64,000 nt of DNA from Planctomycetota bacterium. GTDB lineage: Bacteria > Planctomycetota > MHYJ01 > JACPTZ01. Under the pieces are notes generated by a model. The model did no database searches and was not told the origin of the DNA. It saw nothing but the letters and a program-made list of their open reading frames with translations. The stretch's first letter is position 1. Each line of letters begins with the position of its first letter. The position numbers and the translations under genes are program-made. Positions 46,370 through 61,126 of the stretch are shown here, piece by piece. The stretch spans positions 1 through 64,000 of the forward strand of contig JACPTZ010000017.1 of assembly GCA_016192525.1 (NCBI GenBank), read 5' to 3'.

Positions 46370-46975
46370 AGAACCCGCCGATGATGCCCGCGGCGAGGAG
46401 GAGGGTGATCCACTCGAAGTACTTCTCGATGAGGGCCCTGACGCGCTCCCCGAAGAGGTAGAGCAGGGTCGCCACCAGGAAGAATCGACCCGCGCGGCCG
46501 ATCGCCGAGGCGAGAACGAACGGCAGGAAGGCGATCTGACAGACTCCCGCCGCGATGGTGAACACCTTGTAGGGGATGGGGGTGAAGGCGGCGATGAAGA
46601 CGCACCAGAAGTCGTACTTCTGGTAGAGATTCTGGACGTTGTCGAACGTCTCCTGGCTGAAAATGTAGGGGATGAAGACTCCCTTCACCGCGAGCCAGAG
46701 CCCCCATCCGATTCCGTAGCCGAGGATGCCGCCGAGGACGGAGCCTGCCGCGCTGATGAACGCGTGGCGGAAGGCCTTGGTCCGCTCCGCCAGGGTCATG
46801 GCGATCTGGAGCACGTCTGGCGGGATCGGGAAGAACGAGGATTCGATGAAGGCGATCCCGAACAGGGCGAACTCCGCTCTCGGATGCGCCGCGAGCGAGA
46901 TCACCCAGTGGTAGAGCCGCCGGAGCGGGTTCCGGGAGGGCGAAGGGGGGGGGGGAGCCGCCGGGGCCGCAGCAT
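46344..46975 (-). CDS. DedA/YqaA-type membrane protein; start disturbed by a poly-G tract
   Basis: Small SNARE-associated (DedA/YqaA-like) membrane protein: PLRRLYHWVISLAAHPRAEF, FIESSFFPIPPDVLQIAMTL, an amphipathic GSVLGGILGYGIGWGLW segment and TPIPYKVFTIAAGVCQIAFL. Such proteins act in lipid flipping or membrane homeostasis. No start codon lies near the expected N-terminus in its own frame. The ATG at 46975 (MLRPRRL) would fit if the G11 run at 46945-46955 were one base different. Translation may depend on the overlapping upstream gene, or the tract may be mis-sequenced. Confidence 0.75.
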
Positions 46976-48964
46976 CGGCCGGGGGTAGTTCCCGGCCGCG
47001 GGCGAATCCGGCGCCAGGGCGAGGGTCAGGGAGCCCGGCCGGTAGACCGACTCCGCCGCCTCGACCAGGGCCGCCCGCGCGGGGTCGTCGGCCCGACCCA
47101 CGATCACCACCTTCGGCGGGGGATGGAGGTGATACGCCGCCGCGAGGCCGAGCGTGGCCGCGAACGTGCCGTATCCGGGCAGGACCCCGGCGAAGGCCTG
47201 GAGGATCTCTCCGGCCCGCTCCGCATACTTCGGCGCGTCCGTGAGGGCCGCGAGACGGTCGTTTACGAGCGCCGCCACCGCGTTTCCGCCCGGCATCGGA
47301 GCGTCCTCGAAGTTTTTTTTGCGGGCGCCGAGCAGCCCGAGGTCCGGCTCCGGACCCGACGGGTCGCGGTCGAAGTACCCCCCGCCCTTCGCGTCCCACA
47401 GCCGGGCGTCGCAGTACGCCACGAGGTCGCGGGCGATGTCGAGATACCTCGCCTCCCCCGTAGCGGCATACGCGTCGGTGCAGGCCCATGCCGTCCAGAC
47501 CTGGTCGTCGAGCAGCCCCTCCCCGCGGGCCACCCCGTTTCCGTCGGCGTGGAGCATCCCCTTTCCCGGCCGGTAGCACCTCGAAAGGAGCCGGTCGAGA
47601 CTCTTGCGGGCGAGGGCGGCGCACTCCGGTCTCCGGAGCGACCCCGCCGCCTCGAAAAAGGCGCCCGCCATCATCGCGTTGTAGGCGGTGAAGAGCGTGG
47701 GGTCGACGAACGGTGCCGGCGACCGCTTCGCCCGAACCTCCCGGAGCACGGCGAGCGACCGCCCGAGCGAGGCCTCCACCTCCGCCGGAGTCGCTTCCAC
47801 CGTGTTCGCCACCTCCTCCAGCGACGCCACCCGGTAGAGCACGTTCCGGTCCACCATCTCGTGGAGGTCCCGCGGGACGGTGCGGATGTTGTAGGCTGCG
47901 ACGAAAATCTCCCGGTCCCTCCCCGCGAGCGCCGCCTCGATTTCCTTCTTCGTCCAGGTGAAGTAGGAGCCGTCGTCTTCGAGCGAGATGTCGGCATCCT
48001 GAAAGGCGTAGAAGCCGCCCTCCCGGGGATCGCTCAGCACTTCCGTGACGAACCGGATGATCCCCTCGGCCACCGACCGGAGGCGCGGATCGCCGGTCCA
48101 TCGCGCGGCGTGCGCGTAATTGCGGAGGAGTTCCGAATTGTCGTACGCCATCTTCTCGAAGTGGGGGACATGCCAGTACGGATCGACCGAATACCGGTGA
48201 AATCCGCCGCCGACGTGATCGTGCACGCCGCCCTGCGCCATCGCCTCGAGCGTGAGCCGCACCACGGCGGCCATCCGCTCGTCCTTCTGCTCCACGGCGC
48301 GCCAGAGGGCGAACTCCACGGCCCCGGTGCTCGGGAACTTCGGGCCTCCTCCCTTGCCGAAGCCGCCGTGCTCCGGATCGAACCGGTCGTGGAGCGCATC
48401 GGCGAGCGCCTCCAGGAGCGGCGATTCCACCTTTCCGCTCCGGGGCGACTCCTCCTCGTGCGACGCGATCTGCGAGGCCATCCGCTCGGCCTGTTCCCGG
48501 ACCTTCTTCGGGTCGTCGCGATACGTCTTTGCGAGTTCACGCAGGAGCCGCTTCAGGCCGGGGCGCCCCATGGCGTCGTCGGGCGGGAAGTAGGTCCCGC
48601 CGAAAAAGACCCTTCCCTCCGGCGTGAGGAACCCGGTGAGCGGCCATCCGCCGCCGCCCGTGAGCGCGCCGATCACCGTCTGGTAGCGGCGATCGACGTC
48701 CGGTCGCTCGTCCCGGTCCACCTTCACCGGCACGAAGTTCTCGTTGATGAGTTTCGCGATCTCGGCGTTCTCGTACGACTCGCGGTCGATGACGTGGCAC
48801 CAGTGGCACCAGACGGCGCCGATGTCGAGCAGGACCGGTCGATCCAGCTTCTGCGCGAGGGCGAGGGCCTCGGGGCCCCACTCCTGCCAGGCGACCGGCT
48901 GGTCTTTGGCGCTGCGGAGGTAGGCGCTCGCGGAGGTGGAGAGGCGGTTTTCGAGTGGGGGCAT
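46901..48964 (-). CDS. DUF255 thioredoxin-domain protein (YyaL/spermatogenesis-associated-20-like)
   Basis: A 687-residue protein with an N-terminal thioredoxin-like DUF255 domain (VLLDIGAVWCHWCHVIDRES; INENFVPVKVDRDERPDVDR; FFGGTYFPPDD) followed by a six-hairpin glycosidase-like alpha/alpha barrel. Both CHWCH cysteines are present, unlike the UGA-containing neighbours. The last 30 residues become Pro/Arg-rich after a G11 run, so the normal C-terminus may be lost. Upstream, the same frame encodes a hydrophobic stretch (LIPALLVLLLSAGSQDVP) that could be a signal peptide lacking a start. It is downstream of the two UGA genes. Confidence 0.9.
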   Translation of the reverse strand: MPPLENRLSTSASAYLRSAKDQPVAWQEWGPEALALAQKLDRPVLLDIGAVWCHWCHVIDRESYENAEIAKLINENFVPVKVDRDERPDVDRRYQTVIGALTGGGGWPLTGFLTPEGRVFFGGTYFPPDDAMGRPGLKRLLRELAKTYRDDPKKVREQAERMASQIASHEEESPRSGKVESPLLEALADALHDRFDPEHGGFGKGGGPKFPSTGAVEFALWRAVEQKDERMAAVVRLTLEAMAQGGVHDHVGGGFHRYSVDPYWHVPHFEKMAYDNSELLRNYAHAARWTGDPRLRSVAEGIIRFVTEVLSDPREGGFYAFQDADISLEDDGSYFTWTKKEIEAALAGRDREIFVAAYNIRTVPRDLHEMVDRNVLYRVASLEEVANTVEATPAEVEASLGRSLAVLREVRAKRSPAPFVDPTLFTAYNAMMAGAFFEAAGSLRRPECAALARKSLDRLLSRCYRPGKGMLHADGNGVARGEGLLDDQVWTAWACTDAYAATGEARYLDIARDLVAYCDARLWDAKGGGYFDRDPSGPEPDLGLLGARKKNFEDAPMPGGNAVAALVNDRLAALTDAPKYAERAGEILQAFAGVLPGYGTFAATLGLAAAYHLHPPPKVVIVGRADDPARAALVEAAESVYRPGSLTLALAPDSPAAGNYPRPMLRPRRLPPPLRPPGTRSGGSTTG
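46945..46955. repeat. Homopolymer G11 tract
   Basis: Eleven consecutive G lie at the junction of the DUF255 and DedA-like frames. One base more or less would fuse or reset either frame. Confidence 0.9.
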
Positions 48965-49067: not shown

Positions 49068-49436
49068 TCACTTCCCCGGGTTGGACCCGGCCTTCGCCCG
49101 CGCCGAGGCGATTTTCTTCAGCATCTCCGGCGGCGGGATGAATCCGATCTGGGTTTCGAGCACCTTTCCGCCGGACGAGAGCAGGCGCACGTCCGGGATG
49201 TACGTCACCCCCAGCGAACCGGCGGTCTCGGGATGGCGGTCGGTGTTGACGCGAACGCACACGAAATCCTTCGCCAGTTCGGCGTCCACCTGCGGGTTGG
49301 AGAGCGTCACGGCCTCCAGCTGGCGGCAGGAGGGTCACCAGTCGGCGGTGAGATCGACGAAGAGCATCTTGCCGTCCTTCGTCGCGCGCTCCAGCCCCTG
49401 TTCATAGTCCTCGATCCACTCCACGGTGCCCGGCAT
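49068..49436 (-). CDS. Thioredoxin-fold selenoprotein (UGA codon 34, U-P-S-C)
   Basis: Reading TGA at 49337-49335 as selenocysteine gives a 122-residue thioredoxin-fold protein: MPGTVEWIEDYEQGLERATK, MLFVDLTADW-U-PSC-RQLEAV, then FVCVRVNTDRHPETA and GVTYIPDVRLLSSGG (cis-Pro region IPD). The UGA falls exactly on the first redox cysteine of the CxxC motif after a Trp, as in thioredoxins. AGGA precedes the ATG at 49436. Everything downstream of the UGA keeps strong coding character to the TGA stop at 49068. A stem-loop follows the UGA. A short protein starting after the UGA would lack half the fold. It lies 19 nt from the paralogous gene upstream. Confidence 0.85.
49299..49337 (-). promoter_or_regulatory. 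Candidate bacterial SECIS, gene at 49068
   Basis: The UGA (49337-49335) is followed by 17 nt and then GGAGG-C-CG-UGA-CG-C-UCUCC (49317-49299): a five-pair lower stem including one G-U, one C-C mismatch, two upper pairs and a three-base loop. Distance matches the other two UGA genes. Confidence 0.6.
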
Positions 49437-49455
49437 GGTGAGTTCCTTTCGCCGC

Positions 49456-49806
49456 TTACCCCGCTTTGGCGCGGGCGTCCTCGATCATCTTCAGCATCGC
49501 CGGAGGCGGCACGAAGCCGATCTTCTGCATGAGGACCTGTCCCTGGGAATTGAGGATCCTCACATCGGGGATCTGCAGCGCCCCAAGGGCCGATGCTGTA
49601 TCCGGGTCCTTCATCATGTCGATGTGGACCGCCACGAAGTCTTTCTGGATCTCCCCCACGACCTGGGGGTTGGAGAACGTGACGCTCTCCAGTTTCTTGC
49701 AGGCCCCTCAGCCCTCCGAGTCGATGTCCAGCAGGACCTTCTTGCCGCCCTGTTTCGCGGCCTCGAGCGCTTCCGGGTACGAGGTCATCCAGTTCAGCCC
49801 GGCCAT
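49456..49806 (-). CDS. Thioredoxin-fold selenoprotein (UGA codon 33, U-G-A-C)
   Basis: Reading TGA at 49710-49708 as selenocysteine gives 116 residues: MAGLNWMTSYPEALEAAKQG, KVLLDIDSEG-U-GAC-KKLE, SVTFSNPQVVGEIQKDFVAV, then ALQIPDVRILNSQGQVLMQK. It is a clear paralog of the next gene (shared SNPQV, IPDVR and IGF(V/I)PPP segments). The UGA is at the first position of UxxC. AAAGGA precedes the ATG at 49806. The stop is TAA. The tandem pair plus DUF255 makes a run of three thioredoxin-fold genes, probably one operon handling thiols or protein disulfides in the cytosol (no signal peptide). Confidence 0.85.
49672..49710 (-). promoter_or_regulatory. Candidate bacterial SECIS, gene at 49456
   Basis: The UGA (49710-49708) is followed by 17 nt and then GGAGAGCG-UCA-CGUUCUCC (49690-49672), an eight-pair uninterrupted stem (one G-U) with a three-base loop. 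It is the best folded of the three. Confidence 0.65.
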
Positions 49807-50051
49807 GGACGTTGTCCTTTCAAGTGGATGCTGGCACGTCTATGCTAGCCTCGGGCCGGCGGGGCGGCAACAGTTTCTTGATCCCACCCCCCGACCTCAC
49901 GCCGAACGGGCCCCGGGCGGCCGGCGGGCGGGTCCCGACCTCGTGGCCCGGACGGGGCCGTCCGGGGTCCGAAGTCCTCACCCGTTCACACATCTCTCTG
50001 CCTCCGACGACCGGTCGGTCCCCGCCCCTACCCTCGTCGGAAGGCACACCC

Positions 50052-50192
50052 CGCGGAGGTCCATTGTCTCTTCTTCTGTGTCCGTTTCTTCTTCTGTGTC
50101 CGTTGTTTCACCTCTGTTTCCCAAGACTCCTTTTCTGTTGTCTCCGTTTGAATTCGCGCAATTCGCGGTTCTCCCTTCGCGTCATTTGCGGT
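50052..50192. repeat. 9-mer/pyrimidine-tract repeat module next to flagellin
   Basis: TTCTTCTGTGTCCGTTTCTT-type pyrimidine repeats lead into GAATTCGCGCAATTCGCGGT and GCGTCATTTGCGGT, same order as at 39805-39912. It ends at the flagellin stop codon. The rest of the gap (49807-50051) shows no gene. Confidence 0.75.
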
Positions 50193-51644
50193 CTACTTGG
50201 GCTCCAGCGCCTGCAACAGCCTGGACGCGAGGTTCCGTGGGAAATCGTTCGCGATGATGAGCGAACTGGTCGCACTCTCGATCCTCGCCTGTGCGAGCGA
50301 GAGGGTCGTCGTCTCCGTGGCGATGTCGGTATCCTGCACGATCCCGAGCGCCCCGGTGATCTCCGTCGTCGTGTCTTCGAGGGCGTCAATCGTCGGTTCG
50401 AGGGAGGTCGAGATGATGCTCCCGAGGAACGAACGATAGGACGACACCTGGGTCTGGGCCGTACCCACGATCGACGAGGCGTTGGACGGGTTCGTCGAGA
50501 GGTCGTTCGCCCCGCCCCCCCCGACGCTGCTCAGGAAGCCGCCCACATCGAGTCCGCCGAGCGTTTCCGCCGTGACGCCGAGGGCGCTCGCGAGCGTCGT
50601 GTTGAGCCCGATAGTAAGCCGGTCGCTGGGGAGCGGCTGCGTTCCGATCTGGTAGGTGAGGCCTCCCTTGGCGACGGTGATGGAGTAGGACCCGGCGCCG
50701 GTTCCCGCCCTCAACGCGAAGGTGAGGTTGAACTGCGCCGTCGAGGCGGTGACCTGGTTTCCGGCCGCCCCGAAGGAGGCGCCGTTCACCGTGCCTGCGG
50801 CATCCGCCCCCGTGTCGGACTGAAAGGCGTCGATCGGAGATCCGGTATCGTCCAGGAAGCTGCCTCCCGCAATCGTCTCGGTCGAGATCACCGCGTTCGA
50901 GCCGAACGCCTCGCTCCGAAGTTCCCCGATCGCCGCGTCGTAATACACTCCCGTCTGGGCCCGCACGGTGTTGACCTTGGTCCCGAAAGTGGCGCCCGTG
51001 TCCGCGATGACGAGGCTGATATCGGCGGTCCCCTTTGGACCGGTGAGGCGCACGGTGGTGGCCCCTGAGGCGGCCGCATCTCCCGCATCGGGAACATTGG
51101 CCAGACGCGCCTGCTCGGCGGGAGTGCCCACCACCACGCTGAACGTGACCGACGATCCGCTCCCAAACTCGACCCGACGCGGGTTCACGTCGGTGAGCGC
51201 CGCCGATTTCGACGTCACGGGGATCGCCGCCGTGTTGTTGAGGAGGTAGGTGCTGCCGAACCGGCTGGAGAGCGTCAGACGGTTGATGGAGGCAATGGCA
51301 TCATCGACCGTCGCCTGCTCGGTCGCCACGTCGGCCCCGCCTCCGAGCACGGCGGTGACGGAGGCCGAGATCGTGTCGAGGAGCGATTCGATCTGTTCGA
51401 GGGTGACGTCGGCCGTCGACAACTGGGAGTTCGCGAGCTGGGTGTTCTCGCTCGCCTGGGTGAGCGTGGCGAGGTGGACGCGGAACCGGCTGGCAAGGAA
51501 CGAGCCGGCGGGGTCGTCCGCAGGAGAGTTGATGCGGAGTCCCGTGGCGAGACGGAGCAGGGAACGGTTCTGGGTGCGGTTCGCGGAATCGAGGGCGCGG
51601 ATGACCTGCAGGGCGGACGTATTGGTACTGATGGAAATGGCCAT
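50193..51644 (-). CDS. Flagellin
   Basis: Filament subunit, 483 residues. The ATG at 51644 opens MAISISTNTSALQVIRALDS, followed by RLATGLRINSPADDPAGSFL, the conserved flagellin D0/D1 N-terminus. The C-terminus (ALGIVQDTDIATETTTLSLA; NDFPRNLASRLLQALEP) is the matching D0 helix. The middle is a Thr/Ala/Gly-rich variable domain. GGAGG precedes the ATG. No other flagellar gene is in the window. Typical bacterial flagellins end in an LL..Q motif, which is present here. Confidence 0.95.
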   Translation of the reverse strand: MAISISTNTSALQVIRALDSANRTQNRSLLRLATGLRINSPADDPAGSFLASRFRVHLATLTQASENTQLANSQLSTADVTLEQIESLLDTISASVTAVLGGGADVATEQATVDDAIASINRLTLSSRFGSTYLLNNTAAIPVTSKSAALTDVNPRRVEFGSGSSVTFSVVVGTPAEQARLANVPDAGDAAASGATTVRLTGPKGTADISLVIADTGATFGTKVNTVRAQTGVYYDAAIGELRSEAFGSNAVISTETIAGGSFLDDTGSPIDAFQSDTGADAAGTVNGASFGAAGNQVTASTAQFNLTFALRAGTGAGSYSITVAKGGLTYQIGTQPLPSDRLTIGLNTTLASALGVTAETLGGLDVGGFLSSVGGGGANDLSTNPSNASSIVGTAQTQVSSYRSFLGSIISTSLEPTIDALEDTTTEITGALGIVQDTDIATETTTLSLAQARIESATSSLIIANDFPRNLASRLLQALEPK

Positions 51645-52362
51645 GACGACGATCCTCCGTGATCGTGCTGAGCGTCCCGGGGCGGGACGCGCGACGATCG
51701 GAGGGGCCGCGCCGGGTCTCAACCGGCGGGGTCGCGTCGCGCGGGCCTCGGGGAGGTCCTCCTCGGCCGCCATCCATGGCAGCCTCGCGTCTCCGGACGC
51801 GGGGGGACCGGCAACGGCCGCTGTGAAAGAGCGCGCCGTGACCGCCCCGAGGGCTCGCGATCGCGGGTCAAGAAACGATGCCGTCCCTGCCGATAACAAG
51901 GGTGTCCGGAAGTACGCCCGGACCTCCCTCAGGGACGAACAAGGAGTGCGCCGCGGAAACGGCGCCCTCCGGAGTGCGCGACGGAAGTCGCGCGCGCGTG
52001 GCGGGTGGACGCGGTAACGGGAGGCGCCCCGATCGTCAGGGAGCGACCCCGTCGCGGTGGGAACGGCGGCGTGCGGGATGTGACCTGAAAACAGAATCGC
52101 GCAAGGAGCCGGTTGCTGACGGTTCCAGACGCCTGGCCCTCGGGAAGGTGTCCACAGCGTCCGGTACCGCACCCAGACCGCGCTTTTTGCCACGCAAAGG
52201 CCGAGGCTGCCACCTCGGCCTTTGTTTTTTTCGGGGACGCCGCCCGCGTTCCGGCCCACACGGCCGTCCGCCGGGCGCCGCCCTCCATCCACCTGAACTC
52301 TATCCCACCCCCCCCTCGCTGTCAAGCGTCACTATGGAGTGCGGCGACCCCTCGGCAGGCTC
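51645..52362. other. Flagellin upstream region with a sigma-28-like -10 on the opposite strand
   Basis: About 700 bases without a convincing gene. GCCGATAA, an exact match to the sigma-28 -10 box, lies on the plus strand at 51889-51896 with a poor -35 (AAGA, 15 nt before). It points away from flagellin toward the terminator at 52196-52231. An unannotated RNA of about 330 nt is possible. I see no good minus-strand promoter for flagellin. Confidence 0.35.
52196..52231 (+). terminator. Strong orphan rho-independent terminator
   Basis: AAAGGCCGAGG (52196-52206), loop CTGCCA, CCTCGGCCTTT (52213-52223), then G and seven T. An 11-bp perfect stem with T-tail reads in the plus direction, yet no plus-strand gene precedes it within 13 kb or so except across many minus genes. 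Confidence 0.85.
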
Positions 52363-52575
52363 CTAGCCCGGATTATTCGCGAGTTCTCCGGCGTTCCCTG
52401 GCGAGAGAGCGTTCCTGCGGATTGCCGAGGCCCCGAGTAGGCGCGGCCGTACACGCGCCGTAACGAGGGGCTGGCCCTGCATTCGGGGCAGCGTGGCCTG
52501 GGCCGCCCCTCGTTACGCGGCCTGCGGGCCGCTACTCGGGGCTACGGCGTCTGGTTCACGAATAATCCGGGCTAG
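52363..52575. mobile_element. Nested inverted-repeat element (MITE/BIME-like)
   Basis: Outer arms CTAGCCCGGATTATTCG (52363-52379) and its exact complement (52559-52575), 17 nt. Inner imperfect arms GGCCCCGAGTAG...CGTAACGAGGGGC (about 52429-52477 and 52499-52545) face each other. The right end supplies the TAG stop of the adjacent HEAT gene (52574-52572). No ORF. Confidence 0.85.
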
Positions 52576-53768
52576 CGCGGGCCCGCCTCGACCGCCCGCA
52601 GATCGCGGTCCAGCCGCTCAAGTTCGCGTCGACGTGCCGGGTCCCGGACCCACTGCGTGTTCATCCCCCACGGCCAGAGCAGATTCGAGATGGCCGCACG
52701 TCGCGTCTCCGGCGCATGGGACGCGTCGTGGGCGACCGCCAGGAGGGTGTCCCGAACCTCGGTGTCGCGCTGCGTGGCATAGCGGGAAACGGCGTCGAGG
52801 ATCTTTTTCTGCAGCGTCGGGTCCGGGTCGCGCGTCGCCAGATCGAGCATGACCCGGAAATCGGAAGAGGTCGCGATCTGCCCCAGCCGATCGACGGCCG
52901 CCGCTCTCACGGAAGGGTCCGCGTCCGAACGAATGGACTCCAGCAGGAGGCCCCGTGCCTCCGGGAAGTTCAACGGGGAGTTCGCAAGGGCGCCCCGACG
53001 CAGGTCGGGATCGGTCTCCGATCGCACGGCCCGGCACCACCGATCGTACAGTTCGATCGACCCCGTGTAATCCAGGTGCTCCAGCGCCTTCCTCCGGTTC
53101 GCCGGGTCCGGGTCGTCGGCCAGTTTCATCAGAAGCCGGTTGTACTCGTCCCGCACGGATTCCGGGACTTGTTTAAGGAGACACCCCGATGTGTGGCCGG
53201 TCCGTTCCAGATCCTCGATCTCGTCTCCGATCCACTCGGCGAAGAGCTCGTGGCGCTCCTCACCCAGGGCGTCGTAGAGACCGAGCGCCAGGGCGGCGAC
53301 GTCCGTTTCCCGAACCTCGCCGAACAGATGGCTTGCCTCCCGCAAGATGTAGAGCCCGCAAAAGTCATCTCTCGTCTTCAACCACCTCGGGGTGACCCTG
53401 GCGCGGACGAGCTCGACGATCCCCCGGACCTTTTCGCGGAGCGTCTCTCCCGGCACTTCGGACAGGCCCCCGGGAAGCCAGTGTCCCCGGCGATCAGTGT
53501 GCGGCTTCGACCCGGTCGCCCCGGAAGCCGGAGACGGCGCCGACCCCGCGCCCGACGGGGGCAGGTCGTCGGTGACGGAGCAGTTCGGGCAGAGCCTCGT
53601 GGCGGGGGCGCCACTCGGGGGAACCTCCGCGGCCAATGGGGAATGGTCCGGGGACGGCGTCGCCGCCCGGGAATCAAGTGAAGTCCGCGCCCGGAGCATC
53701 CCCGCGCCGCCGCAGACGGCCGCCATCGTGGCGGCGACCGCATAGACCTTGAGCGCCCTACTTCCCAA
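52572..53768 (-). CDS. Membrane-anchored HEAT-repeat protein, paralog A
   Basis: A 398-residue protein with TTG start at 53768 (GGAGG six bases before), one N-terminal helix (LKVYAVAATMAAVCGGAGML) and a short zinc-ribbon-like RLCPNCSV. The motif GGLSEVPGETLREKVRGIVE is followed by HEAT repeats (DPDPANRRKALEHLDYTGS; SDADPSVRAAAVDRLGQIA; QRDTEVRDTLLAVAHDAS). It overlaps the next paralog by 11 nt. Its stop lies in the inverted-repeat element. Only one CxxC of a zinc ribbon is present, and its fourth residue is Ser where the paralogs have Gly. Confidence 0.85.
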   Translation of the reverse strand: MGSRALKVYAVAATMAAVCGGAGMLRARTSLDSRAATPSPDHSPLAAEVPPSGAPATRLCPNCSVTDDLPPSGAGSAPSPASGATGSKPHTDRRGHWLPGGLSEVPGETLREKVRGIVELVRARVTPRWLKTRDDFCGLYILREASHLFGEVRETDVAALALGLYDALGEERHELFAEWIGDEIEDLERTGHTSGCLLKQVPESVRDEYNRLLMKLADDPDPANRRKALEHLDYTGSIELYDRWCRAVRSETDPDLRRGALANSPLNFPEARGLLLESIRSDADPSVRAAAVDRLGQIATSSDFRVMLDLATRDPDPTLQKKILDAVSRYATQRDTEVRDTLLAVAHDASHAPETRRAAISNLLWPWGMNTQWVRDPARRRELERLDRDLRAVEAGPR

Positions 53769-54987
53769 GTCCCGCCTCCCCGGCCATGGACGCGCGAAGG
53801 GTCGCCAGCATTTCCTGGAGCGTCTGCCGCTCCCCGGCGTCGGTGACGAATTGCCTGCAGCTCGCGTAAAGCAGGATCTCGATACTCCGCCCCCGCAGTT
53901 TCAACGGGCGGGCCGGATCGCGTGCCACCTCGAACAGCGCATCACGTGCCTCCCGGTCTCGATGGCTCGCCTCTCCGCTGAGTCCCGTGATGATGGCCTC
54001 CTGGAGGCCCGGGTCCGGCCGTTGGCGGAGCATCTCGATCATCGACGTGAATTCCTGCGTGTCGGCGAAGCGGAACACCTCAGGGATGGCGGCGGCCCTC
54101 ACGCCGGCGTCCGGATCGGATCGCGCCGTCTCCATCAGGCTCCGCCTCAACTCGGGGATTCGGAATCGGGGGTGGTCGGAGGGGACTTCGTCCAGGGCGC
54201 CGCCCGGGTCATCGGGGAACCGCAGAGGGAGATTCTCCGCCGCCGTTGCGCGCACCGAGGGATCCGGGTCCGTGGCCAGGAGACGGAGCCAGGAGTCGAC
54301 GACCCCCGGGAAGGTCGAGTAGTGGAGCAGGCGAAGCGCTTTCCGGCGATCCGACGGATCCGGGCTCGCGCGCATGTCGACAACGATGCGGGCGAACTCC
54401 TCCTCTTCCGCGTCTGTGGTGGAGAAGGGCGACATCTCCTCGATCCCGTGAGCGATGAGCCCTCCCACGTGCTCGTCCTTCTCCCCGCGGAAGAGGTCGA
54501 GGAGAAGGCGGACAAACCCGTCGGGATCCTGATCGACCGCCTCTTCGCAGAAATTCTCAACCTCCCTCTCCCGATCCCACTGCCCCGGGTACTCCGGCGT
54601 TCTTCCGCCCATCACGGATCGCAGCCCGTCGAAGAAGTTCCGGGTCTTTTCCCTCAGGTCGTGTCCGGGGAGGTCGTCCAGGCTCCGCGGCGGCCAGTTT
54701 TCGGGGGGCTTCGTGGCATCAGGGTCTGCGGGAGTGTCGGACGTCGTGGGAGGAGGGGGGGCGGCGTCCGTCGCACCAGCCGCATCCGCCGCGGACAGGT
54801 CACGGCCGCAACGGGGGCACGCCTCGCGGAGCGGCGCAGACGGGGCGGCGCTCTTCGTCCGGGCCGTCTCGCCCGGAGGCGGGCGTCTGTGCTCTCCGCC
54901 GATTCCCGCCACGCTCCACCAGGCTCCGGCGAGACCGCAGGTGGCGATCGTCACGAGGAGGGAGTAGACGGCGAGGAGATGCCTCAC
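53758..54987 (-). CDS. Membrane-anchored HEAT-repeat protein, paralog B
   Basis: A 409-residue paralog: GTG start overlapping the upstream stop (GTGA), helix MRHLLAVYSLLVTIATCGLA, zinc-ribbon-like EACPRCGRDL, then NWPPRSLDDLPGHDLREKTR and HEAT repeats (TDPDPSVRATAAENLPLRF; SDPDAGVRAAAIPEVFRFA; HRDREARDALFEVARDPAR). The C-terminus is a short helix pair (VTDAGERQTLQEMLATLRAS). Middle member of a four-gene overlapping run. Confidence 0.87.
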   Translation of the reverse strand: MRHLLAVYSLLVTIATCGLAGAWWSVAGIGGEHRRPPPGETARTKSAAPSAPLREACPRCGRDLSAADAAGATDAAPPPPTTSDTPADPDATKPPENWPPRSLDDLPGHDLREKTRNFFDGLRSVMGGRTPEYPGQWDREREVENFCEEAVDQDPDGFVRLLLDLFRGEKDEHVGGLIAHGIEEMSPFSTTDAEEEEFARIVVDMRASPDPSDRRKALRLLHYSTFPGVVDSWLRLLATDPDPSVRATAAENLPLRFPDDPGGALDEVPSDHPRFRIPELRRSLMETARSDPDAGVRAAAIPEVFRFADTQEFTSMIEMLRQRPDPGLQEAIITGLSGEASHRDREARDALFEVARDPARPLKLRGRSIEILLYASCRQFVTDAGERQTLQEMLATLRASMAGEAGLGK

Positions 54988-56285
54988 TTGCCCTCCGTTC
55001 CGCTCGTCCCCGCCTGCTTGATCCGCGTCATCATCGCCTCCAGTTCGCTCCGCTCCGCCCGGTCCTCCACGAACGAACCGGAGTGGCCCCAGAGGAGATC
55101 CTGCAGCGCCTGCATCCGCACCGAGGCGGCGCGGGAGGGATCGCGCGCGACGTCCAGGAGCGCCGTCCGCACCTCCGTGTCGCGCGGAGTGGCGCCGTAG
55201 GAGAAGGCGCGGATCGCCGCCTCCTGCACCGCCACGCTCGGATCGGTGCGGAGGAGTCGGACGAGGACGCCCATCTCGGTCGGCGAGGCGGTCTCGCCGA
55301 GACTCCGGATCGCCGCGAGGCGGACCGTGAGGTCGCTGTCGTACTGCGCGGCCTGGACCAGCATGTCCCCTCCGTCCGGGAAACGGCGAAGCGGGTGTTC
55401 GGCGGCGACGGCGCGGACGGTCGGGTCGTAGTCGGATCGCAGCGCCTGCGCCCAGCGGTCCCGGTCCTCGTCGTCGTTCGAGGCGCTGAGGTGGCGGAAT
55501 CCCTTGCGACGCTGGAGCGGGTCGGTGCTCGACGTCAGGGTGTCGAGGAGGCGATCGAACTCCGCGCGCTCCTCGGTCGGCAGCTTCATCACCTGCAGGT
55601 GCCAGCCGAGCGCCTCGGCCACGATCTCCTCCGACTCGCCGGTGAAGAGATCGAGGAGCACGCGCGGGAGGGCGGGATCGTTCTTGGCCTCCTTGAGCAC
55701 CCCGCTCAGCATTTCCCGGAGCCGGTAACGCCCCTTGAGATCGCCCGGCGGCAGACCCTCGACCTCCGCGCGGAGACGCTCGATGAAGGTCGCGACCTTG
55801 TCTCGAAGCGTCCCGCCGGGCACATCGGCGAGCGACTGCGGCGGCCAGGGCCAGTCCTGAAGCGGAGGGGGAGAGGGGTCTTTCCTCGTGCCCTTGCCCG
55901 CAGGCGCCTTATCGGCCGGGACCGGCGGAACGCCTGTCACGGAGGAGTCGAGGCTCTTGCCGCAATGCGGGCAGCGGGCCGGCGCGTCCGTCCGGTTCGT
56001 CGGTTCAGACGCGAGGCTGTCGGTTGTTGTTCCTGTTTTTCCCCTCTCCCCCGCAGCGGGAAAGGGCAGGGTGAGGGGGGACACGTCCCTCCCCGCGGGC
56101 GACGGTGTTTCCTCTCTCACCCCAGGCCCCCATCTCCCTCCGGGGGAAAGGGGAGCATGCCGTTCTGTGACGAGTTGGTCGAACTCGACCCGGGTGAGCC
56201 ACCAGCCCGCCGCGCAGGCGATGGCGGCCGCGGTGACAAGCACGCCGTAGGCGACGAGCAGACGGTGGGAGTTCACGCCGGTCAC
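54984..56285 (-). CDS. Membrane-anchored HEAT-repeat protein, paralog C, with repeat insertion
   Basis: A 433-residue paralog (GTG start, GTGA overlap). Helix HRLLVAYGVLVTAAAIACAA, then an in-frame repeat-derived segment (PLSPGGRWGPGVREETPSPA; SPLTLPFPAAGERG), zinc-ribbon-like ARCPHCGKSLD, WPPQSLADVPGGTLRDKVAT and HEAT repeats (SDYDPTVRAVAAEHPLRRF; PRDTEVRTALLDVARDPSRA). The repeat segment lies in the linker between helix and zinc motif, where extra length should be tolerated. Confidence 0.87.
   Translation of the reverse strand: MTGVNSHRLLVAYGVLVTAAAIACAAGWWLTRVEFDQLVTERHAPLSPGGRWGPGVREETPSPAGRDVSPLTLPFPAAGERGKTGTTTDSLASEPTNRTDAPARCPHCGKSLDSSVTGVPPVPADKAPAGKGTRKDPSPPPLQDWPWPPQSLADVPGGTLRDKVATFIERLRAEVEGLPPGDLKGRYRLREMLSGVLKEAKNDPALPRVLLDLFTGESEEIVAEALGWHLQVMKLPTEERAEFDRLLDTLTSSTDPLQRRKGFRHLSASNDDEDRDRWAQALRSDYDPTVRAVAAEHPLRRFPDGGDMLVQAAQYDSDLTVRLAAIRSLGETASPTEMGVLVRLLRTDPSVAVQEAAIRAFSYGATPRDTEVRTALLDVARDPSRAASVRMQALQDLLWGHSGSFVEDRAERSELEAMMTRIKQAGTSGTEGK
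56035..56160. repeat. CTCTCCC/GGGAGAGG-type repeat within paralog C
   Basis: CCCCTCTCCCCCGCAGCGGG, GGCAGGGTGAGGGGGGACAC and CTCTCACCCCAGGCCCCCAT form a head-to-head repeat. A close relative lies at 57345-57455 at the same place of paralog D. Confidence 0.75.
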
Positions 56286-57622
56286 TTCCTCTGGAGCGCC
56301 TGTTCCTTCATGAGTTCGAGGGTCATTTGCCCCAGTTCCCTCTCCAGGATCGGGTCCTGGATCAGGCCCCCCGAACCCGCGAATCGGAGCACATTGAGGG
56401 ACTCGATCCGCAGTCCGATGGGGCGCTGAGGATCACGCCCGATCTCAAGGAGCGCGTCCCGCACCTCGGTGTCCCGCGTCGTTGCGCCGAGCTGAAACGT
56501 CCAGAGGATCGACTTCTGCACCGCAAACTCCGGCTCGCGTCGCAGCAGGGCCAGCATGGCCCGGAATTCCTCCTGAGTGGCGCCATGGGCAAGGCTCTGA
56601 ACGCCGTTCGCCCGGACCCCCGGGTCGGGATCGTACTGCGCGGCCTGGAGCAGAAGCGATCTCGCCTCCGGAAACCCGATCGGGCGCTCCTCGGCCGCCG
56701 CGGCGCGGACGCCGGCGTCCGGGTCCGCCGCCAGCGCGATACGCCACCGTTCGAGGGCCTCCGGGGTGCGCAGGTAGGTGGCGCCCTGCAGTGATTTTCG
56801 GCGCTCCAGCGGGTCGGTGCTTTGCGACAGCTCCGCCAGCAAGCGTTCGTGCTCCGCCTTCTCCTCCGCCGTCGCGTCCTTCAGGACCGGCCAGCAGAGT
56901 TTCGTCCCGATCAACTCGGCGAGGAGCTCGTTCCGCTCACTTTGAAAGAGGTCGAGCAGCACCCGCGGCAGGCCGGAGGCGTCCTCCTGCCCCGCCTCCT
57001 CGAGGATCTCCTCCACCGGGTCCCGGATCTTCGCCACCCGGAGCACGTCGTCCCGGCTCACGTCGCCGGCCTGGTCGCGCGCAGAATCGATCAGCGCGGT
57101 GATCTTTTCCCGAAGCGTGGCGCCGGGGAGATCGGCGAGCGAACGCGGCGGCCAGGATCCGTCCGGAGAAGGGGGGCGAGAGGCGCTCTTTGCGGACGCT
57201 CCCGCCGCCGGTTCTGGTTTGGGACCTCCGGGAGGCGTTCCCGTCACAACGGGGTCGAAGCCCCGGCCGCAGTGAGGGCAGGGCGCACCCGTGGGCGTCG
57301 CCTCGGGGGTGTCCGCTGGCGTCGTTGTTTCCGCTTCTCGCCCCTCCCCCGCACCGGGAGAGGGCAAGGTGAGTGGGGATTCGTCCCTCCCCGCGTGCGG
57401 CGGTGTTCCCCTCCTCATCCCCGGCCTCTCTCCCTCTCCCCGGGAGGGCGGAGGGCCGACCTGGTCCAACTCGGCCCGTGTCGACCACCACCCGATTCCG
57501 AGGGCGATCGACGCCACCGTCGCGAACATCGCCCACGCGACGACCAGCGTGAAGGCGAATGAACCGACCGCGGGCAGGCGCGGCGGGGACGGAGGTGGAG
57601 CCGCGGCGTTTGCGTCAGGCAT
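56282..57622 (-). CDS. Membrane-anchored HEAT-repeat protein, paralog D, with repeat insertion
   Basis: A 446-residue paralog, first of the four-gene run. ATG 57622 (MPDANAAAP) is preceded by GGAGGG. Helix FTLVVAWAMFATVASIALGI, repeat-derived linker (PPSRGEGERPGMRRGTPPHA; SPLTLPSPGAGEGRE), zinc-ribbon-like APCPHCGRGFDP, WPPRSLADLPGATLREKITA and HEAT repeats (ADPDAGVRAAAAEERPIGF; TRDTEVRDALLEIGRDPQRP). The C-terminus is a coiled helix (LERELGQMTLELMKEQALQ). Confidence 0.87.
   Translation of the reverse strand: MPDANAAAPPPSPPRLPAVGSFAFTLVVAWAMFATVASIALGIGWWSTRAELDQVGPPPSRGEGERPGMRRGTPPHAGRDESPLTLPSPGAGEGREAETTTPADTPEATPTGAPCPHCGRGFDPVVTGTPPGGPKPEPAAGASAKSASRPPSPDGSWPPRSLADLPGATLREKITALIDSARDQAGDVSRDDVLRVAKIRDPVEEILEEAGQEDASGLPRVLLDLFQSERNELLAELIGTKLCWPVLKDATAEEKAEHERLLAELSQSTDPLERRKSLQGATYLRTPEALERWRIALAADPDAGVRAAAAEERPIGFPEARSLLLQAAQYDPDPGVRANGVQSLAHGATQEEFRAMLALLRREPEFAVQKSILWTFQLGATTRDTEVRDALLEIGRDPQRPIGLRIESLNVLRFAGSGGLIQDPILERELGQMTLELMKEQALQRK
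57345..57455. repeat. CTCTCCC/GGGAGAGG-type repeat within paralog D
   Basis: CCCCTCCCCCGCACCGGGAG, AGGGCAAGGTGAGTGGGGAT and CTCTCCCTCTCCCCGGGAGG correspond block by block to the insertion in paralog C. Confidence 0.7.
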
Positions 57623-57714
57623 GATTTCACACCCTCCGAGGTACGTGGCCGCCGTCCCTGGCGTTGTCATCCTGGAGCCTGAGAAGAAATGCGCCGACGA
57701 GCGAGGCGCCAGAT

Positions 57715-57771
57715 TGTCATCCTGAGCGTCGGGCGCAGCCCCGCAGCACGTGCTGCGGGGCTCAGGATGTC
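57715..57771. repeat. CATCCTGAGC-family repeat, copy 3, with a 26-nt perfect palindrome
   Basis: CATCCTGAGC and CTCAGGATG flank AGCCCCGCAGCAC/GTGCTGCGGGGCT (57737-57762). The central 22 nt are shared with the MITE-like element at 36504-36702. Supplies the stop codon of the gene at 57762. Confidence 0.85.
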
Positions 57772-58124
57772 ATTGCGGAAACCTCGCTCTCCTCCGGATC
57801 GTCGCACGGGGGTGCGGCCGGGGTCAACGCAATATCCGCTCGACCCGTCCCGGCGCGACGGTACGCGGCGATGTCGGAGACCGCGTTCGCGTTCTCTTCC
57901 AGAAGCCGTCCCAGACGCGCCGCTGTGCCGATCAGTTCGTCGACCTCCCCGGCGATGGCGACATCCGCCCCGGCGGTCAGCCGGGTCCGCGCGGCGTGGA
58001 GTCGGTTCCGCCATTCCCAGAGGCGGCTGACCTCCACCTCCTCCGCTGTCGTTCCCTGTGGCCCGAGTGGATTCTCACGCAGGGTGACGACCAGGCGGCC
58101 AACGTCATCATCAGGCGGCGGCAT
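57762..58124 (-). CDS. Small hypothetical protein
   Basis: A 120-residue acidic helical protein (MPPPDDDVGRLVVTLRENPL; LWEWRNRLHAARTRLTAGAD; VDELIGTAARLGRLLEENAN). It has no signal or membrane segment. The stop codon and last residues come from the flanking repeat, so the native C-terminus may have been replaced. No family recognised. Confidence 0.6.
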   Translation of the reverse strand: MPPPDDDVGRLVVTLRENPLGPQGTTAEEVEVSRLWEWRNRLHAARTRLTAGADVAIAGEVDELIGTAARLGRLLEENANAVSDIAAYRRAGTGRADIALTPAAPPCDDPEESEVSAMTS

Positions 58125-58233
58125 GGGAGGCTCTCAGGACGCACGGGACGCGCCTCATTATGCCGCGGTCTGCCCTTCGCGCAAGAGGAACCGCTAGTGG
58201 TGTTTGACGCTTCAATCTGTGCCGTCACCGGGT

Positions 58234-58292
58234 GGCACGGGCGGCTCGTCCGCCCGTGCCCGGCAGCACGGGCAGCAAGCTCCCCGTGCCAC
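58234..58292. repeat. Paired hairpins in the gap before the third UGA gene
   Basis: GGCACGGGCGG-CTCGT-CCGCCCGTGCC (58234-58260) is an 11-bp perfect stem; GCACGGG and CCCGTGC (about 58266-58292) form a second, inverted relative. No gene is visible in 58125-58457. Confidence 0.7.
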
Positions 58293-58457
58293 TCACAAGT
58301 CCGATGTTGAAGACCTACTGGCGATCCGTCAGCGCTGATTCAGCGAGCGGCCTGTCGTTGTTTCCCCCCTTCGTCATTCCTCCTTCCGCACTCGTCATTC
58401 TTGCCTCCCCGCCCCCGCCCGCCGTATCATGGCGCCTCCCTGCACAAGGAGACGCCC

Positions 58458-59585
58458 ATGCCGCTCCCCGCCCTTCGCCCTGTCCTCGTGGCCGCCGTGC
58501 TCCTCGCCGCCCTCGCCGCCCGTTCCGCTTTTGGGGGGAGCGAGACCCCGCCCGAGGGGCCGCCCTGGAAGCGCGACTTCCTCGAGGCCCAGAAGGAGGC
58601 CCTCAAGGAGGGGAAGCCGATTTTCATCTACCTCACGAAGACCTACTGACCCCACTGCGTCGTCGTGGAGAAGCAGTTGCTTCCCAACCCCGATCTGAAA
58701 CCGGTCTACGACAAGGTGGTCTGGCTCTACGTCTTCCGCGACTTCTCCGCGAAGGGGGACGACCTCAAGGCGGAGCGCACGTCGCTCCGGTTCGGGCTGT
58801 CGTCCTACCCGCAGCTCTTCCTCGTCGATCCCGAATCGCTCGAAACGATCGGCGAGACCGGTCGCGAAGTGGATACGTTTCTGAATGCCGTGCGGAACGC
58901 CCACGTCCGCAAGGCGAGGGACCTCAAGGCGCTGGAACGGGTCCAGCAGGCCGACTCCCGGGCCGAGGAGCTGGAGAAGAAGGACTCGGTTGAACTCGCG
59001 AAGAAGTACTTCGCCGACGAAGACATCGTCGTCCGCACCCGGGCGCTCCGCATCCTGGCCGAGAAGGAGCCGGGTCTCGTGGCGGCGAAGGCGAAGGACC
59101 TGCTCGAGATCGAGAACGACACCTTCCGCTATGAAGTGTGCAAGGCCCTCAAGAAGGCGGGCGATGTGAAGGCCGCGCGCGCACTCGATGAGGTGGCGCA
59201 GAATCCGAAGGGGAGCCGAAACCCGAATGTGCTCTCCTCGGAGGCGGCCGCCGCACTGGAGACCTGCGGAGACATGAAGTCGATCGCGGCCCTCGCGCCG
59301 AGGATCACCCGGGGGGACTACAAGAACAGCGGGACGCGGATCGCCATCGATTCCGTGATGGGGATTGTCAAGCGGTTCCCGAAGGCGAAGGGCGAGGCGA
59401 AGGATGTTCTCCGACAGGGATTTCCGGAGCCCTGCGATCCCAAGGAGAGCGACAACCTGCGGAACATGTGCGAGGCCTTCGCGAAACACCTCCACGACTG
59501 TCTCGAGGATCTCACCGGAAAGAAGGTCCCGTTTCCGGATCCGTACGACGCCAGGGGGCGCGAGCGACTGATGAAGGCGTGGTGA
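58458..59585 (+). CDS. Exported thioredoxin-fold selenoprotein with HEAT-like tail (UGA codon 64, U-P-H-C)
   Basis: Reading TGA at 58647-58649 as selenocysteine joins two parts into one 375-residue protein. N-terminal signal peptide (LPALRPVLVAAVLLAALAAR), WKRDFLEAQKEALKEGKPIF, IYLTKTY-U-PHC-VVVEKQLL, then SSYPQLFLVDPESLETIGET (cis-Pro, SYP) completes a thioredoxin fold. HEAT-like helices follow (ADEDIVVRTRALRILAEKEP; ALETCGDMKSIAALAPRIT). AAGGAGA precedes the ATG. The UGA is the first redox position of UxxC. It lies between HEAT paralogs D and E, which suggests a shared extracytoplasmic role. Confidence 0.88.
58647..58685 (+). promoter_or_regulatory. Candidate bacterial SECIS, gene at 58458
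   Basis: The UGA (58647-58649) is followed by 17 nt and then GGAGAAGC-AGUU-GCUUCCC (58667-58685), seven pairs with one bulged A and a four-base loop. Same GGAG start and spacing as the other two. Confidence 0.62.
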
Positions 59586-59598
59586 GGGGGGGGGCGCC

Positions 59599-60948
59599 TC
59601 ACCGGACCTCCCCCTCCGGCTCATCCCAGATCGCCTGCTCCAGCGCCTCGAGTTCCCGGCGCTGCTCCGCGTTCTGGACGTACCCGTCCCCGCCGTTGGT
59701 CCCCCACAAGAGCGCGCTCACGGCGCTCCCCCTCAGCGACTGCGGCTGCGACCGATCCCGGGCAATCTCGAGCAGTGTGTCCCGGACCTCCGTGTCGCGA
59801 ATGCTGGCGGACCAGGCGACGGCGTCGAGCACGGCCTGCGGCACCTCGGGGTCGCGATCCGACCGCATGATTCCGAGGAGAGTCCGCATCTCGGCTGCGG
59901 TGGGGTTGTACCCGACGGTGTAGATCGCGTTCGTCCGGACGGTGCTGCTCGGGTCGAACTCCGCGGCGCGGAGGAGGAGGGAGCGGGAGGCATCCGTCCG
60001 GCTGGTCGGAGGGAGGACGGCGGCCTCGGCGCGGACCTGCTCGTCCGGATCGGAGAGGAGCATCCGGCTCCAGAGGTCGGCGGTCTCGGGTAGATCGATC
60101 TGCTGGGCCTGGCCCAAGGCCTTGACCCGATCGGCGGCGACGGGGCTGGTTCCGAGGGAGAGGAGGAGGCCGACGAACTCGTTGCGCTCGGTATCGGTCC
60201 TGGTCAATCCCCAGAGATGGGTGCCGAGGGTGCGCGCGAGAGTGGGGTCCGACTCCGCCCGGAAGAGGTCGAAGAGCGCGGCGCGGGTGGCCGAAAGGTC
60301 CTGCTTCTGGGCCTCGGAGAGAAGTTCGCTGAGCCTCGCCTGCGCGAGGTTGAATTGGTTCGCGTAGGACTGCCGCGCGTTTGGATCCCCTTCCGGCGGC
60401 GGGGGGACCGCCTCGTGGATGCGCGTGAGGAGGGACCGCAACTTGTCGGCGACGGTGACCCCGGGAATGTCGGCGAGGCGGTTCGGGAGGTTCGCGGCTC
60501 CCGCGAGGACGGAGATCATCGTGTCGAGATTCGCGCCGTTGACGGCGGTGGTCCCCGTCGTTGCCTTCCCGCCGGCGGACACCGAGGTGCCGCAGTTCGG
60601 GCAGCGTGCCGGGGCCCCCGGATCGGACGGGCCGGCGGGCGTGACGGCGACGCCGACAGTCGAAGCGGGCGATCCCGAGGTGTCTCCCATTCCTCCCGCA
60701 GCCTCGACAGCGGAATCCGGATCTCGTCCCGCTTCGAGCGGGGCGGCCCCGTGCGAAGGTCCCCTCGCCGCGGCCGGACCCGTCCGGCCCCTCCCCCCCG
60801 GCGGCCCCGGTCGCAGGATCGGCGGGCGCACGGCCGCGGGCGCCGAGCTATCCTCAACGCGCTCCGCCGCCCGCCACCACCCGACCGCGCAGACGAATGC
60901 CGCGGCGGTGACCGTCACGCTGTAGGCCGTCAGGACCGTCTTTGACAA
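59599..60948 (-). CDS. Membrane-anchored HEAT-repeat protein, paralog E
   Basis: A 449-residue paralog. I prefer the TTG at 60948 (LSKTVLTAYSVTVTAAAFVC) because the other four begin their helix at once and GGGAGG lies ten bases upstream; ATG 61062 would add 38 residues of Gly-rich sequence. It has a linker, ARCPNCGTSVS, LPNRLADIPGVTVADKLRSL and HEAT repeats (SDPDEQVRAEAAVLPPTSR; IRDTEVRDTLLEIARDRSQ). It faces the UGA gene convergently with a 13-nt gap. Confidence 0.83.
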   Translation of the reverse strand: MSKTVLTAYSVTVTAAAFVCAVGWWRAAERVEDSSAPAAVRPPILRPGPPGGRGRTGPAAARGPSHGAAPLEAGRDPDSAVEAAGGMGDTSGSPASTVGVAVTPAGPSDPGAPARCPNCGTSVSAGGKATTGTTAVNGANLDTMISVLAGAANLPNRLADIPGVTVADKLRSLLTRIHEAVPPPPEGDPNARQSYANQFNLAQARLSELLSEAQKQDLSATRAALFDLFRAESDPTLARTLGTHLWGLTRTDTERNEFVGLLLSLGTSPVAADRVKALGQAQQIDLPETADLWSRMLLSDPDEQVRAEAAVLPPTSRTDASRSLLLRAAEFDPSSTVRTNAIYTVGYNPTAAEMRTLLGIMRSDRDPEVPQAVLDAVAWSASIRDTEVRDTLLEIARDRSQPQSLRGSAVSALLWGTNGGDGYVQNAEQRRELEALEQAIWDEPEGEVR

Positions 60949-61126
60949 GATGCCGTTTCCTCCCAGCTCTGCGGCCGCCCCGGGGATTTCACCCCCTCCG
61001 CCTTCGCCATTCACCAGCACCCCGTTGTCCGTGCCCGCACCTCGCAAACCGCGTTTGTCCATTCGTCATTCATTCGTCATTCCTCATTCCGCATTCGTCA
61101 TTGCCTCGTCCCTCACCCCTTACCCC

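Follow-up and report, generated by a model that had tools for sequence, protein, structure and literature searches.

Three genes in a Planctomycetota genome, here called g1, g2 and g3, very probably (about 0.93) encode selenoproteins of the Thioredoxin_7 fold, in which an in-frame UGA specifies selenocysteine (Sec) and the hairpin downstream of it is a bacterial Sec insertion sequence (bSECIS). They lie in a 64,000-nucleotide stretch (contig JACPTZ010000017.1 of assembly GCA_016192525.1, positions 1 to 64,000), hereafter the window. The in-frame UGA codons, the homology, the UGA-specific hairpins, the fixed distance from UGA to loop and the genes selA and selB are all observed; from these we infer actual Sec insertion and SelB binding at g1-g3.

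Three Thioredoxin_7 genes with a UGA at the redox cysteine

All three proteins match Pfam Thioredoxin_7 (PF13899) above its gathering cut-off of 27 bits, with 65 bits for g1 (E 7e-18), 52.2 for g2 (7e-14) and 38.3 for g3 (1.5e-9). In each domain the UGA occupies the first Cys of the CxxC motif and aligns with Cys of homologs. The g2 gene lies directly upstream of g1; the g3 protein joins a signal-like N-terminal stretch, the Thioredoxin_7 domain and HEAT_2 repeats. Coordinates are collected in Table 1.

Table 1. Genes, Sec codons and hairpins in the window (hairpin offsets counted from the UGA)
Feature	Position	Strand	Description
g1	49068..49436	-	Putative 122-aa Thioredoxin_7 selenoprotein; motif ADW-U-PSC-RQLE; ordinary terminal UGA stop
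g1 Sec UGA codon (U34)	49335..49337	-	Covariance-model match, 36.2 bits
g1 bSECIS hairpin	49299..49317	-	+18 to +36; GGAGGC-CGUGAC-GC-U-CUCC
g2	49456..49806	-	Putative 116-aa Thioredoxin_7 selenoprotein; motif SEG-U-GAC-KKLE; TAA stop
g2 Sec UGA codon (U33)	49708..49710	-	Reading frame and covariance-model match
g2 bSECIS hairpin	49672..49690	-	+18 to +36; GGAGAGCG-UCA-CGUUCUCC; 8 bp
g3	58458..59585	+	375 aa; Thioredoxin_7 domain motif KTY-U-PHC-VVVE; ordinary terminal UGA stop
g3 Sec UGA codon (U64)	58647..58649	+	Reading frame and covariance-model match
g3 bSECIS hairpin	58666..58686	+	+17 to +37; UGG-(A)-GAAGC-AGUU-GCUUCCCA
DsbH-like (DUF255) gene	46901..48964	-	Downstream of g1; Cys (CHWC) at the matching position

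The published bSECIS consensus model calls for a loop of 3-9 nt, an upper stem of 4-16 bp, an energy of at most -7.5 kcal/mol, a G at loop position 1 or 2 and a UGA-to-loop distance of 16-37 nt (PMC13188914). Each of the three hairpins stands immediately 3' of its in-frame UGA within the coding region, with a stem and energy inside these limits (from +17/+18, -9.0 to -9.5 kcal/mol for g1, -12.9 for g2 and -9.9 for g3), loops of 6, 3 and 4 nt and loop distances of 23, 25 and 25 nt, respectively. The loop G is present in g1 (CGUGAC) and g3 (AGUU); in g2 it would appear only if the closing G-C pair opened, turning UCA into GUCAC (the two forms of the loop lie 24-25 nt past the UGA). The g1 hairpin, with one bulged U, is the weakest of the three, and that of g3 carries a bulged A. 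Our version of the consensus test is approximate, as the E. coli fdhF hairpin, in a shortened form, scored only -6.7.

These features suggest a conventional route to Sec. The UGA at the first CxxC position would be decoded as Sec to give a UxxC redox site, and the hairpin that starts about 18 nt downstream, with its G-containing apical loop some 23-25 nt past the UGA, would serve as the bSECIS. By established biology, SelB carrying Sec-tRNA would bind the loop and deliver Sec at the UGA, and the UGAs that end g1 and g3, at which our SECIS model has no match, would act as stops.

A hairpin specific to UGA genes and a GGAG largely due to coding

The earlier note on this DNA had started from a shared GGAG, set apart from the UGA by exactly 17 nt in all three genes (49317, 49690 and 58667) and opening a small stem-loop in each. 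Both observations hold, and folding gives about -9.0, -12.9 and -9.9 kcal/mol for the three hairpins. The argument built on them does not: g3 had been treated as unrelated to the other two genes, yet all three are Thioredoxin_7 relatives, and the common spacing that was read as a sign of function is a product of their shared protein motif. GGAG at +18 spells codons 6-7 after the UGA, Leu/Val then Glu, within the family motif [U/C]xxCxx[L/M/V][E/D]. It is not a signal by itself, because this codon pair belongs to a conserved motif. The probability of GGAG in all three genes, given protein sequence and local codon usage, is 0.021; any bias towards G at the wobble position is therefore slight at best.

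Homologs allowed us to separate the two components. From the source genome and its relatives in the same class and phylum we collected 56 homologs with UGA and 63 with Cys. Residue 6 is mostly Met/Leu and residue 7 mostly Glu/Asp in both sets, and GGAG at +18 is found in 18/63 Cys homologs against 10/56 with UGA. These counts, and a g1 stem that lies within chance, are what would be expected if GGAG and its spacing were purely a matter of the [U/C]xxCxx[L/M/V]E motif and the stem were incidental. That explanation accounts for the GGAG letters, and for these alone it is valid; it does not account for the hairpin. Mean folding energy over +15 to +42 is -10.0 kcal/mol in UGA homologs versus -5.1 in Cys homologs (p=2e-12), and 30/56 of the former but only 3/63 of the latter have energies under the 5% limit set by synonymous versions of the same gene. 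Measured against synonymous recoding, UGA genes stand at z=13.5 in stem score and Cys genes at 2.0. Where UGA homologs carry GGAU, GGAC, GGAA, GGCC or CGAG in place of GGAG the hairpin is kept, with altered 5' letters matched on the 3' side (GGAU..GUAUCC, GGAC..GUCC, GGAA..UUCC). A purely coding origin of the whole pattern is thus improbable, and for the homolog group as a whole the hairpin is a UGA-specific signal. The GGAG is mostly coding sequence of the conserved Leu/Val-Glu, very probably put to use as the 5' half of the stem.

What stays nearly constant among homologs is the distance from the UGA to a G-containing apical loop. The published bSECIS rules are passed by 51/56 UGA and 32/63 Cys homologs, and in 42 of the 51 passing UGA homologs the loop begins 23-26 nt after the UGA, a position that distinguishes UGA genes. 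Their loops are mostly GGU, AGUU, GAUA, AGGU or GUC, in line with the rules. One Cys gene, L060, shares its hairpin (GGACGCGGGCGCGUUCAGC) with L067, a relative that has Sec, and the SECIS model gives it 32.5 bits; L060 may have exchanged Sec for Cys recently and still carry the old SECIS.

Tests on the single sites follow the checks that the earlier note had proposed. Against synonymous versions drawn with local codon usage, chance is rejected for the hairpins of g2 (p=0.0075) and g3 (p=0.0090) but not for that of g1 (p=0.135); combined by Fisher's method, the three give p=7e-4. A covariance model (R1) trained on 22 homologs, all from other genomes, placed g2, g1 and g3, in that order, at the top of all matches on both strands of the window, with 44, 36.2 and 13.6 bits and E-values of 1e-12, 4e-10 and 0.013. 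The DsbH-like gene, an internal Cys control, received 8.1 bits (E 0.82). A sequence-only model (R2) gave g2 31.9 and g1 24.8 bits, 11-12 lower than R1, and did not recover g3 in the window. Part of the R1 score is coding conservation, and the result supports the homolog and synonymous controls without replacing them.

Covariation, the remaining check, is present. In the register shared by g1 and g2 (eight sequences, selected for sharing it) 81% of cells are paired, versus 28-63% in slid versions; G-C changes to C-G at pairs +18/+36 and +21/+33, and the covariation score was equalled by 1 of 500 shuffles. In the UxxU group described below, one pair varies among A-U, G-U and G-C. Structure is therefore conserved through compensatory change in homologs, by few events. 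When 22 homologs of mixed register were forced into a fixed-column structure, covariation was weak and RNAalifold returned no consensus. The cause is a stem register that varies by 1-3 nt, and sets restricted to one register do better. Rfam at gathering thresholds gave no match in the window, and a symmetric-centre score across all positions was uninformative. Taken together, the earlier proposal of a bSECIS read by SelB survives on the hairpin (homologs, Cys controls, covariance model, pairing changes, selA and selB), while its argument from GGAG spacing falls away.

Selenocysteine machinery and the reading of UGA

The source genome encodes an intact selA, above its family cut-off. Its best selB match lacks the first part at a contig end; selB is the best family for this match, which scores under the cut-off, as expected for a truncated gene. 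An apparent tRNA-Sec match proved to be tRNA-Ser, and what looked like selD is, judged from its sequence, a ThiL-like kinase. Across 40 genomes (the source and 39 relatives) selD occurs in 29, mostly with one UGA, and tRNA-Sec matches exceed the cut-off in 26, some of which may be tRNA-Ser; the four strong loci checked with ARAGORN, all in relatives, were confirmed as tRNA-Sec with anticodon TCA. SelD is an unrelated protein, and in the relatives a hairpin of the same kind follows the UGA at 3/5 of the loci read, its loop lying about 27 nt past the UGA at locus L175.

Within the source genome, 9/14 Thioredoxin_7 domains contain a TGA, at the first Cys of CxxC wherever it was read, and one of the nine belongs to a member of the named selenoprotein family NF041199, which carries two UGAs (393 bits; cut-off 300). 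Relatives in the class add dozens of Thioredoxin_7 matches with an in-frame TGA, suggesting a large selenoproteome for the lineage. Many in-frame TGAs within one protein family might also be expected if the lineage used UGA for one of the standard amino acids, for instance Trp or Gly. TGA also terminates genes here, g1 and g3 among them; the in-frame TGAs examined fall at the redox Cys position, with the window scan pointing to them only there and to TGA otherwise as a stop; and selA and selB are present. Pseudogenes, or sequencing errors at a TGC/TGT codon, might similarly be suspected in a fragmented assembly, but the TGA recurs at the same position in several domains of the source genome and in dozens of homologs from many genomes, the flanks are coding-like and the downstream protein is conserved. 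We rejected both explanations on the TGA stops, the redox-Cys positions and the recurrence in independent genomes, and regard a changed code and decayed or misread genes alike as very improbable.

Several points nonetheless weigh against Sec insertion through a bSECIS. Neither selD nor tRNA-Sec (selC) was found in the source genome, an 82% complete metagenome-assembled genome in 227 contigs. Taken alone, the g1 hairpin is no better than a chance recoding, and its ungapped-stem score (P=0.90) shows nothing beyond chance, the stem being bulged. The 3-nt loop of g2 lacks a G as long as its closing pair stays closed. The loose bSECIS rules are also satisfied by roughly one in two synonymous versions, so passing them is weak evidence here. 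The homologs share kinship and cannot be counted as independent cases, the R1 training set was picked from UGA homologs with recognisable hairpins, and true compensatory changes are few.

Several further loci stood out. Six of the Trx7/PDZ type, with the motif FR-U-xx-U-xx-C (L030, at G000:C177:12387-12635, and L069, L071, L082, L084 and L093), have a pair of UGAs spaced by 9 nt and, after them, only one hairpin (GGACA-GGU-UGUCC type). One SECIS thus seems to serve both codons, which precede its loop by about 26 and 35 nt. In L086, L094 and L102 the first of the two places is taken by Cys. A DsbD-like membrane protein, L027 (G000:C180:7246-7500), carries Sec (UTNC) in the thioredoxin domain at its C terminus and has a weak hairpin. 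In the window itself, related genes with a membrane-like N-terminal segment form minus-strand tandem copies at 52572-57670 and 59599-61062; they share a motif resembling CPxC and end in a C-terminal part rich in repeats.

Relation to known selenoproteins and significance

Thioredoxin and a thiol:disulfide interchange protein are known UxxC selenoproteins (PMC13188914 Table 1, PMC1088965). Like these, g1-g3 combine a thioredoxin fold with Sec in place of the first CxxC Cys, and Cys homologs are common; g3 differs by its HEAT_2 region. The domains are of the Thioredoxin_7/DsbD-gamma type seen in NF041199 (Trx7/PDZ) and NF045694 (TsoB/DsbD-like), yet all three genes fall far under the cut-offs of both (for NF041199, g1 38, g2 29.8 and g3 16.9 bits versus 300), and none exceeds the cut-off of any named NCBIfam selenoprotein family. 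Their hairpins bring no new structural element, and the loop distance, 23-26 nt in most homologs, is narrower than in the consensus (PMC13188914). The hairpins are standard bSECIS elements, and the genes are new members of known selenoprotein kinds.

A more speculative and rather doubtful idea is that the Thioredoxin_7 fold is pre-adapted to Sec, such that a few synonymous changes would suffice to gain a SECIS. The [L/M][E/D] codons 6-7 and a later Ser/Pro would provide GGA and UCC half-stems at no cost, which, if true, would explain both the TGA in 9/14 domains and the uniform loop distance.

Where coding sequence is rich in GC, the recurrence of a common tetranucleotide at constant spacing is weak evidence, and so is even a passing bSECIS score; comparison of UGA with Cys homologs, together with synonymous recoding, is a useful control that separates signal from coding constraint. 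For this organism, the analysis corrects the annotation of three genes otherwise cut at the UGA and reveals that thioredoxin-like selenoproteins are numerous in its genome.
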